Below, one piece after another: positions 43,874 to 45,317 of a stretch of 64,000 bases of DNA (positions are counted from its first letter, which is position 1; the number at the start of each line of letters is the position of its first letter). Below the pieces are notes generated by a model. That model was not told the DNA's origin, did not search any database, and saw only the letters and a program-made list of their open reading frames with translations. A program made the position numbers and the translations under genes. The DNA is from Sphingobium sp. (GTDB taxonomy: Bacteria; Pseudomonadota; Alphaproteobacteria; Sphingomonadales; Sphingomonadaceae): the NCBI GenBank assembly GCA_020446425.1, contig JAGRES010000005.1, positions 1 through 64,000 of the forward strand, written 5' to 3'.

Positions 43874-43879
43874 ATCAGA

Positions 43880-43912
43880 TACGTATCCCCCCTTAAGAGA
43901 TACTACGTATCC
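43880..43912. promoter_or_regulatory. Direct repeat TACGTATCC upstream of the secreted module
   Basis: TACGTATCC occurs at 43880-43888 and again at 43904-43912, 24 bases start to start (close to two helical turns). Each contains the palindrome TACGTA. It lies about 80-105 bases before the first module gene, where an activator site would be expected. Confidence 0.4.
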
Positions 43913-43986
43913 AGCCTATACCCGCCGGTTAACCATAATCACATATTCCTGATAGCCGGACAAAAAGGTTTTCAGGAGGGGCATAT

Positions 43987-44460
43987 ATGGGATGTCCTCG
44001 TTTCAACGCATCCAAATGGGCTACCGGCCTTCTGGCCGCAGGCGGCCTGACGTCTTCAATGGCGCAGGCACAAACCATTACGATGACCGGAACGGTCGCC
44101 AATCTGTGCGTCCTGACTCTGACGACGCCCGGCGTCATCGCTGTCGACCCGACAGGTATGGAGCTCTCGACCACGCAAACCGGCGGCGTCGCGGCATCCA
44201 TGACCGTAGTGGCCACCGGCACCAACCCGACCATTACCTTCACCGCGCCCGGCCTCACCGGCCCGTCGGCTTCGGGGGCAACGGCGGAGATGGCCTTCAC
44301 ATCACCTGCCGGGGCAAGTAACCCCTATAGCAGCAGCGGCTATGTCTATGCGATGAGCCAGCTGCTCGACACCATCACGATCAACGGGCGGGCGACCAAG
44401 GCCACTGGCTTTCAGTCCGGCGTCTATAACCTGACGTCGACAGCGACGTGCGCGCAATGA
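43987..44460 (+). CDS. Secreted beta-rich protein, fimbrial/spore-coat-U-like, unknown function
   Basis: 157 aa. AGGAGG precedes the ATG. Signal peptide 1-28, cut after AQA. The mature part is rich in Thr, Ala, Gly and Ser with alternating hydrophobic strands, and has just two cysteines, one near the N-terminus (VANLCVLTL) and one at the C-terminus (STATCAQ). A Cys at each end with beta strands between is the layout of pilin-type Ig domains. No lipobox or membrane anchor. Overlaps the next gene by ATGA. The fimbrial link is an inference from layout and neighbour. Confidence 0.7.
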   Translation: MGCPRFNASKWATGLLAAGGLTSSMAQAQTITMTGTVANLCVLTLTTPGVIAVDPTGMELSTTQTGGVAASMTVVATGTNPTITFTAPGLTGPSASGATAEMAFTSPAGASNPYSSSGYVYAMSQLLDTITINGRATKATGFQSGVYNLTSTATCAQ

Positions 44461-44858
44461 ACAGGGCGCGCATATCGGCTGTGGCGGTGGCGGCTATGCT
44501 GGGCGCCGCAATGCCGGCAGGTGCCGTCGGCCTTGGCCCGCTATCCAAAGAAGGTCTGATCGACGGCCCGCGCAAGGGGTTCGAGCTGGTTCTCTACAAC
44601 CCTTATGATGATGCCGTGGATTTCATCGCTTACGCCGTTGGCATTGGTGATGAGACGCCGCAGCAGCGGGTAACCGTCATCCCGCAACAAACGAAGTTGG
44701 GCGGAGGCCAGTCACGCCGCCTGATCGTTATCGCCAGGGACCTCTCCCTCAATGAACATTATCAGTTCCGGGTGTGCGCCGAACGGCAGGCACCCCCTTC
44801 AGGAATCCGGATCAATGCACGTGTTTGCTCGAAATTATCTGTCACTCGTGTGCGCTAG
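44457..44858 (+). CDS. Secreted single-domain PapD-like chaperone protein
   Basis: 133 aa with a signal peptide (cut near AGA, residue ~23). The mature ~110 residues match the N-terminal domain of periplasmic pilus chaperones in order: FELVLYNPYDDAVDFIAYAV, then VTVIPQQTKLGGGQSRRLIVIARDLSLNEHYQFRVCAERQ (compare the N-P-x(n)-P-x-x-x-L-x-P-G-x-x-Q pattern and the following E-x-x-Y-R-V). The second chaperone domain is absent. ATG 44457 overlaps the preceding stop. It may fold or escort the upstream protein; no usher gene is visible in the window. Confidence 0.68.
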   Translation: MNRARISAVAVAAMLGAAMPAGAVGLGPLSKEGLIDGPRKGFELVLYNPYDDAVDFIAYAVGIGDETPQQRVTVIPQQTKLGGGQSRRLIVIARDLSLNEHYQFRVCAERQAPPSGIRINARVCSKLSVTRVR

Positions 44859-45219
44859 TCTCGCGCTTGCGGCACAGGCGCAAGCGTCCACGACCGGCGT
44901 TTACCTGCCTCCCGCCCCCACGGGATCGGGCGGCGAGGACTCGATAGAAACCAGCAGCGGTACACGGTGCCGCCAGAGCATCAATTCCAACGGCCCCTAT
45001 CTCGATGTCGGCGTCAGCGGCACGGCCTCTTCGCCCATCGACCCGGACGCCATGCGCTACAGCTTCAGCGACACGCGCGACAAGCAGGGAACCGTTTACG
45101 CGCGTGTCAGCATTCCTCTGGGCAAACGCCCGGAGAGGATCGACTGTTCACGCGTTTATGAGCTTGAGTTGCAAAAGCTCAAACGGGAAATCGAGTTACT
45201 CCGGCTCGGCATGGAGTGA
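44815..45219 (+). CDS. Secreted small Cys-containing protein, unknown function
   Basis: 134 aa. Starts inside the PapD-like gene (44-base overlap) in another frame; AGGA lies before the ATG. Signal peptide 1-24 (ALAAQAQA). The mature protein has a Pro/Gly/Ser-rich start, two cysteines (GTRCRQS and RIDCSRV), and a C-terminal helix with heptad-like Leu spacing (YELELQKLKREIELLRLG), likely a coiled coil for assembly. No known family recognised. Last gene of the module, followed by a strong terminator. Confidence 0.65.
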   Translation: MHVFARNYLSLVCASLALAAQAQASTTGVYLPPAPTGSGGEDSIETSSGTRCRQSINSNGPYLDVGVSGTASSPIDPDAMRYSFSDTRDKQGTVYARVSIPLGKRPERIDCSRVYELELQKLKREIELLRLGME

Positions 45220-45262
45220 ATGCAGCCCCACACTGTGTTCACCCCAACGGGCCGGAGAATAT

Positions 45263-45317
45263 GCGCCCTTCCTCACACTCGGTAAAGACATGAAAAAGTG
45301 AGGAAGGGCGCTTTTTT
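45263..45317 (+). terminator. Terminator of the secreted module
   Basis: GCGCCCTTCCTCAC (45263-45276) pairs with GTGAGGAAGGGCGC (45298-45311), 14 pairs, followed by TTTTTT. It separates the module from ybgC. Confidence 0.9.

Follow-up and report, generated by a model that had tools for sequence, protein, structure and literature searches.

Three intact plus-strand genes, here called A, B, and C, occupy the gap between ruvB and ybgC in the window, the 64,000-nucleotide stretch of Sphingobium sp. DNA analysed here. The coordinates (Table 1) bear out the proposal of an earlier note, made from the letters of this DNA, that three overlapping genes stand between ruvB and ybgC-tolQRAB-pal: A and B overlap by 4 nt, and B and C overlap by 44 nt. 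The start of C was set at 44815 rather than at the beginning of the longest frame (44752) because relatives start there. The GC content of the stretch holding the trio (0.59–0.64) is the same as that of its surroundings. Identities of 34–63% are kept for A, B, and C across 15 relatives, which argues that the genes are more than chance open reading frames. By eye, the N-termini of all three proteins resemble signal peptides, as the same note had read them.

Table 1. Positions of genes and sequence elements of the trio locus, numbered from the first nucleotide of the window.
Feature	Position	Strand	Basis
End of ruvB	43873		
Upstream palindromic/near-direct repeat (GATACGTATC ... TACGTATC)	43878..43911	+	sequence
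AGGAGG, likely ribosome-binding site of A	43974..43979	+	sequence
Gene A, candidate secreted pilin-like protein, 157 aa	43987..44460	+	translation, alignment, model
A residues 29–39, N-terminal extension, candidate donor strand	44071..44103	+	model, alignment
Gene B, predicted secreted single PapD-like chaperone domain, 133 aa	44457..44858	+	alignment, model
B Cys107, on the strand before the last	44775-44777	+	model
Gene C, 134 aa, best conserved of the trio	44815..45219	+	alignment; matches phrog_37374
B residues 122–131, last strand, bearing Cys124	44820..44849	+	model
Likely intrinsic operon terminator: GC-rich hairpin of 14 bp and a run of six T	45263..45317	+	folding, shuffles
Start of ybgC frame	~45408		

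The trio appears to end in a strong terminator of its own, as had been suggested: the hairpin at 45263–45311 has a folding energy of −29.9 kcal/mol (z −5.1), none of 200 shuffled sequences was equally stable, and a run of six T follows. A simple scan for terminators and promoters overlooked this hairpin because its loop limit was 8, and it found no promoter-like site. The repeat said to mark the upstream region is present, as the palindrome GATACGTATC at 43878 and a 14-nt near-repeat at 43880/43904, but the palindrome is within chance (2 matches with at most one mismatch in the window versus 1.05 expected) and by eye no copy was seen 5′ of A in 14 relatives. Another motif, TTAACCAT, a putative CtrA half-site, was spotted after the fact shortly before A at 3 of 15 loci (43929–43936 in the window, L022, and L026). 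The earlier note called the order of ruvCAB and ybgC conserved in many alphaproteobacteria. Eight genomes of the same genus were examined. One of them (G076) has no trio at this place and only ~0.2 kb between its ruvB and ybgC matches, as in an empty site; the other seven have no ybgC within 1.5 kb of ruvB, and the order is thus not general even within the genus. No phage genes were recognised by eye beside the copy in the window.

Predicted folds of the three proteins

The model of protein B, built from 16 sequences, is one beta-sandwich with a mean pLDDT of 88.9. In a Foldseek search of the PDB, 49 of its best 50 matches were chaperones of chaperone-usher systems, as judged by description and chain length; the best E-value was 4e-7, and TM scores among these best 50 ranged from 0.56 to 0.69 by query length. 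These matches support a PapD-like fold, that of an N-terminal chaperone domain, for modelled B, and they agree with the earlier description of B as a single PapD-like domain. Having a single Ig-like domain, B falls outside the two-domain plan of periplasmic chaperones. Both of its cysteines are invariant in the alignment and lie on the last two strands. A disulfide between strands F1 and G1 occurs in chaperones such as Caf1M, and the last strand of B, whose Ser-Lys-Leu presumably resembles the G1 strand of PapD, would be the equivalent of the chaperone G1 strand.

The last strand reads Cys-Ala-Lys-(Leu/Val)-Arg-Leu-Tyr-Trp-Pro in four Vibrio phage B proteins, and a profile of these four found no chaperone among PDB sequences. 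When the B model was compared with predicted structures of viral proteins, the best match was a 109-residue protein (E 2.1e-5, TM 0.73 by target length), the same length as the putative B of phage 1.081.O; most of the other named viral matches were Ig-like or enzyme-linked domains of unrelated proteins. Sequence profiles of A and B reached no pilin or chaperone in the PDB or Pfam. The B profile did match titin (best E 3.5e-6), and 5 of 16 B members matched fn3 (best E 0.00062), matches that fit a generic Ig-like strand pattern; the outcome of the fold search was preferred to a titin or fn3 identity. A candidate second copy of B in the window's genome (L002, E 0.06) was attributed to chance, and it overlies a long open reading frame on the other strand.

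Protein A was modelled with a mean pLDDT of 87.2. Chaperone-usher pilus subunits or adhesins made up 24 of its best 50 Foldseek matches in the PDB, with E-values of 0.025–0.16 that are individually not significant; as a set, the matches point, more weakly than those of B, to a candidate pilin-like fold. A cysteine stands towards each end of A, as had been noted (Cys41 and Cys155), and the protein carries a C-terminal Gly-x-Tyr strand. The 11 residues before the first strand form no strand in the monomer model. In 50 aligned rows of bacterial and phage A proteins, the positions −4, −6, and −8 from the first cysteine are non-polar in 49, 45, and 49 rows, whereas −5, −7, and −9 are non-polar in 9, 8, and 4. 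A thus has an alternating N-terminal extension of the donor type; this pattern supports a candidate donor strand, although the pattern alone is no proof of donor use. We take the overall layout of A to be similar to that of the Spore coat U and DUF4402 pilin-like families, but neither family was matched when 16 A proteins were searched against Pfam at E up to 1. Downstream of C, a Mesorhizobium plasmid and three genomes of genus g402 carry a second A-like gene (L171:8368-8850 and L188:6038-6670), as if the two encoded major and tip subunits.

Protein C, the most conserved of the three, has two invariant cysteines and, by pattern, a C-terminal heptad-like stretch, which fits its earlier description as a small Cys protein with a C-terminal coiled coil. 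It matches phrog_37374 (E 1.7e-8). No relative of known function was found for it in the libraries searched, and a search with PDB sequence profiles identified no known family. Weak C matches at L048–L050 were rejected; the genes there (L058–L060) include lipoproteins, with no A or B match better than E 0.05. Two lipoprotein-like genes among them (L058:5808-6221 and L059:5217-5900) contain a DGT-x-x-RQTIN-x-DGTY segment with a weak resemblance to the first half of C. The matches at L052/L061 (E 0.003) and L187 (E 0.005) were left out of the membership count.

Neither Pfam nor NCBIfam assigned A, B, or C to a known family, and none of the three proteins matched PADLOC at E up to 1. The accessible portions of the open-access literature yielded no description of the trio and none of a virus-encoded pilin-like protein with its own chaperone, in keeping with the earlier remark that this is not a described system. 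The closest comparison is with chaperone-usher pili (PapD, FimC, Caf1M, CsuC). The trio is like them in the predicted fold of B, that of an N-terminal chaperone domain, in the adjacency of the genes, and in an A protein that leans towards the pilin fold, with its alternating N-terminal extension and C-terminal Gly-x-Tyr strand. It differs in that its chaperone has a single domain rather than two, that no usher was detected in the window's genome, that a further conserved protein (C) belongs to it, and that tailed phages carry it. We judge the trio to be new because an usher was looked for and not found and because C has no relative of known function among those found; it could instead be a variant of chaperone-assisted subunit assembly.

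Occurrence in bacteria, plasmids, and tailed phages

Strong C matches were found at 27 bacterial or plasmid loci (the window, L003, L004, L021–L033, L053, L054–L057, L171, L172, and L188–L191), and all 27 have A and B, 25 by tblastn or profile and two by a weak score together with inspection by eye. At the two weaker loci, L172 (Vibrio) and L191 (G1055), B scored E 0.014 and E 0.038, respectively, and the A-like genes were recognised by eye. The order is A-B-C in the window, L003, L004, L021–L033, and L053–L057; it is B-C-A in L191 and in phage 1.081.O (A by eye). The two named relatives are both Sphingobium: in L004 the trio also lies between ruvB and ybgC, and in L003 it lies before ybgC. 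Near the trio in L021–L033 (16–18 kb each) there was no match to Ruv, YbgC, TolQ, TolR, or TolB. The three genes thus recur as a unit at unrelated loci, and the trio is a real gene unit. Linkage in relatives, on which the reading in the earlier note depended, has one exception: L034–L036, in three genomes, have a B-like gene of weak similarity with no A or C found, which argues against strict linkage of B. These lone genes (L034:7962-8321, L035:8315-8689, and L036:8384-8743), all from one genus, encode a secreted single-domain protein and by eye stand beside a gene for a GNAT-type acetyltransferase.

The low numbers of matches in genome samples of increasing breadth indicate that the trio is sporadic. 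Among 397 family genomes, a search with B gave 14 strong matches (E 2.3e-20 or better) and three weak ones, 17 in all. With the C profile, 14 of 396 genomes sampled from the order matched, 11 of them strongly; in the class sample the count was 3 of 385, namely the window's genome, one strong match (G845, 10% contamination), and one weak match. A broader profile gave matches in 6 of the 229 genomes sampled from the phylum, namely the window's genome, four other strong matches, and one weak match. Fourteen listed genomes of the same genus in the order sample are without the trio. A search of 229 family genomes with A gave five strong matches, all in known trio genomes, and four weak ones (L087–L090, E 0.001–0.005). 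On a Vibrio nigripulchritudo plasmid, an EAL-domain gene (L172:8323-9045) overlaps the end of C, and the 16 kb surrounding the Mesorhizobium copy contain EAL, GGDEF, and PilZ genes; these plasmid neighbours hint at a link with surface attachment.

Tailed phages and plasmids carry the trio too, a finding that goes beyond the earlier note. The C profile matched 215 stretches of viral contigs, of which 80 were analysed. A and B are present in 74 of these 80, and the other six have only 12 to 910 nt upstream of the C match. In a test for A and B genes with two cysteines upstream of C, 73 of 80 viral loci passed. In other parts of these loci, a single pass was seen among 220 open reading frame pairs, or among 101 strand-loci. 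L091 has the trio although it falls outside this two-cysteine filter. Near-copies are many, and 78 loci, including four Vibrio phages, collapse into 34 groups for A, 48 for B, and 39 for C.

Two comparisons relate the phage and bacterial forms. First, hhalign of bacterial against phage profiles of the mature proteins gave E-values of 2e-8 for A with A, 6e-5 for B with B, and 4e-30 for C with C, and all six mismatched pairs had E-values of 0.12 or worse; the homology between bacterial and phage B is moderate (probability 65%). Second, phage profiles run against open reading frames of the bacterial loci picked out A and C where they were expected, with weaker hits to B. By these profile comparisons, the phage and bacterial forms of the trio are homologous. 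In a tree of C, 17 chromosomal rows form one group (97/95) beside phages L091 and L095. This tree, from which L188–L191 were left out, is midpoint-rooted and its long branches meet, so that it gives no direction of transfer.

Window C matches 59 phage records, all named Vibrio phages. In pVp-1 (T5-like, Demerecviridae), the trio corresponds to gp077–gp079, which follow an 861-aa protein and stand shortly before holin and endolysin. These three proteins are phrog_25895, 25455, and 37374, each labelled 'unknown function' in PHROGs; the window trio shares their A, B, C order and the C match, but window A and B had no match to phrog 25895 and 25455 at E up to 1. In vB_VhaS-tm and K251 g3, the trio is preceded by a 770-aa protein; the large neighbour is phrog_10818, as tested for K251 and pVp-1. 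When 20 proteins from 15 viral loci were compared with PHROGs, 15 matched. Among the families matched were portal and major head in L091, portal in L150, head morphogenesis in L153, tail or tail fibre in L168 and L169, endolysin in L137, helicase in L094, and DNA polymerase in L095.

The position of the trio varies among phages, and this bears on two explanations centred on the virus. One is that the trio aids lysis and release by weakening or remodelling the outer membrane, with bacteria having domesticated it. The setting in pVp-1, shortly before the lysis genes, and that in L137, where the trio comes soon after endolysin, would suit such a role. Against it, the trio of L091 lies between the portal and major head genes, that of K251 g3 lies before a head-tail adaptor gene soon downstream, L137 by eye appears to have a spanin-like pair of its own, and bacterial copies have no phage genes recognised by eye alongside; we regard this explanation as improbable. 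The other is virion decoration: once lysis has taken place, the exported proteins would bind to the particles set free into the medium. Trios do lie inside structural gene clusters in some phages (in L150 before the portal gene, in L168 after a tail-fibre-like gene), but the signal-peptide-like N-termini and the presence of the same trio in bacteria without recognised phage genes alongside make virion decoration highly improbable in our judgement. The accessible part of a paper on another vibriophage (PMC7012835) contained no virion proteomics or exclusion data that we could find. In L094, L095, L109, and L121, the neighbour named by PHROGs is a gene of DNA or nucleotide metabolism, which argues against a uniform late-gene setting; the late reading developed below rests on some phages. 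All genes around the trio of 1.081.O are hypothetical. In three marine phage contigs (L108:2658-4044, L137:2733-4098, and L107:2675-4097), two more exported genes stand directly before A, and the first of these has relatives in Pelagibacter and Roseobacter phages, one annotated as OmpA family.

Usher genes and a possible assembly route

No usher was detected in the window's genome, a 36-contig draft with an estimated completeness of 99.92%, by PF00577 or by two further profiles, A4 and A5 (E 0.01 for both), in accord with the earlier observation that none was visible. The two profiles were built from 19 of 20 ushers of the family because PF00577 is blunt for this family. Ushers of the family fall into two deep groups (L062–L081), the second often below the cut-off of the Pfam model, and a family-specific profile finds more ushers than that model does. 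Across the family at large, PF00577 matched in 28 of 149 genomes and A4 in 53 of 149, the latter at a loose cut-off that includes weak matches.

The survey covered the 19 trio genomes known before the last four were found. A full-length usher (E 1e-100 or better) is encoded elsewhere in nine, and none was found in ten. The ten include G053, which is a single contig, and G304 and G393, with two contigs each; they also include G310, which is 84% complete, G845, which is 10% contaminated, and two with partial weak matches, G593 (one contig, E 6.4e-6 with one profile) and G028 (E 0.005 with the other). Among the nine, G374 has in addition a fragmentary usher match with an internal stop (E 4.4e-5) ~7 kb from its trio. 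These counts bear directly on the idea of a reduced chaperone-usher system in which the trio would borrow an usher from another locus. Nine genomes could supply one, but in all nine, by the coordinates, the full-length usher and the trio are on different contigs or separated by 0.35 Mb or more. Ten genomes have no full-length usher that the profiles could find, and Pfam shows no usher among the large proteins beside the trio in pVp-1 and K251 g3. Borrowing thus strikes us as very improbable, and the usher survey suggests that the trio does not depend on an usher.

We tentatively favour, with somewhat less than even confidence, the view that the trio works in the Gram-negative envelope as a chaperone-subunit module independent of an usher, one that bacteria, plasmids, and tailed phages have in common. 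All three proteins would be exported by Sec. In the periplasm, B, which the fold and the linkage suggest serves A, would place its last strand in the open groove of A. A itself would be pilin-like, with an incomplete Ig-like fold that a Cys41–Cys155 disulfide closes. A would then exchange B for the N-terminal extension of the next A, polymerising into a short fibre that may leave the cell, or for the N-terminus of C. C would be an oligomeric base at the outer membrane, assembled via its C-terminal coiled coil. The envelope would in this way be loaded with pilin-like A and with C without an usher. If such an usherless chaperone-pilin pair works, the envelope has a second way of dealing with subunits of this kind, and in C it would have a partner of a new type.

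A competing explanation does without a fibre: A, B, and C would form a stable complex at the inner face of the outer membrane that jams or shields a receptor, with B a structural partner rather than a chaperone. The missing second chaperone domain of B, the presence of one or two A-like genes at each locus inspected, and the lack of a detected usher in the window's genome are all compatible with such a complex, as is the precedent of T5 Llp, which acts from the periplasm according to the accessible part of its description (PMC9586334). The alternating N-terminal extension of A, however, is a trait of a polymerising pilin, and the paired A-like genes of the Mesorhizobium plasmid and the three g402 genomes suit a fibre with a tip. 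We consider the stable complex unlikely, though a serious contender.

For the usher-independent module, the phage setting suggests a use. The trio stands beside structural or lysis genes in several phages, which makes a change to the surface of the dying host probable: the product would alter that surface so that progeny or rivals fail to adsorb, and in bacteria the same product would serve adhesion or protection against phages. The accessible part of PMC9586334 describes T5 Llp as an exported superinfection exclusion lipoprotein, encoded beside the receptor-binding gene, that blocks re-infection and adsorption to debris. The phage trio, like Llp, would be an exported product; Llp is one small lipoprotein, whereas the trio has three proteins. 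A role like that of Llp would explain the retention of the trio in unrelated phages. This type of exclusion is described as early (PMC9586334), so a late position of the trio would be a different use; by analogy, the trio may block receptors late in infection. The fullest form of this proposal is that unrelated tailed phages encode a pilin-like subunit, a one-domain chaperone, and a base protein that coat or plug the host late and without an usher, so that progeny are spared spent cells, and that bacteria captured the set as armour or as an adhesin. We think it rather doubtful in this complete form. The trio also offers a way into the exported proteins to which no role is assigned in marine and Vibrio phages, and through its occurrence in Sphingobium-type bacteria it is accessible in harmless strains. 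In Vibrio phages, a very small gene that by eye encodes a putative lipoprotein lies directly after or near the trio (L173:5290-5448, L176:6097-6273, and L177:5275-5418), and its product might itself act in superinfection exclusion.
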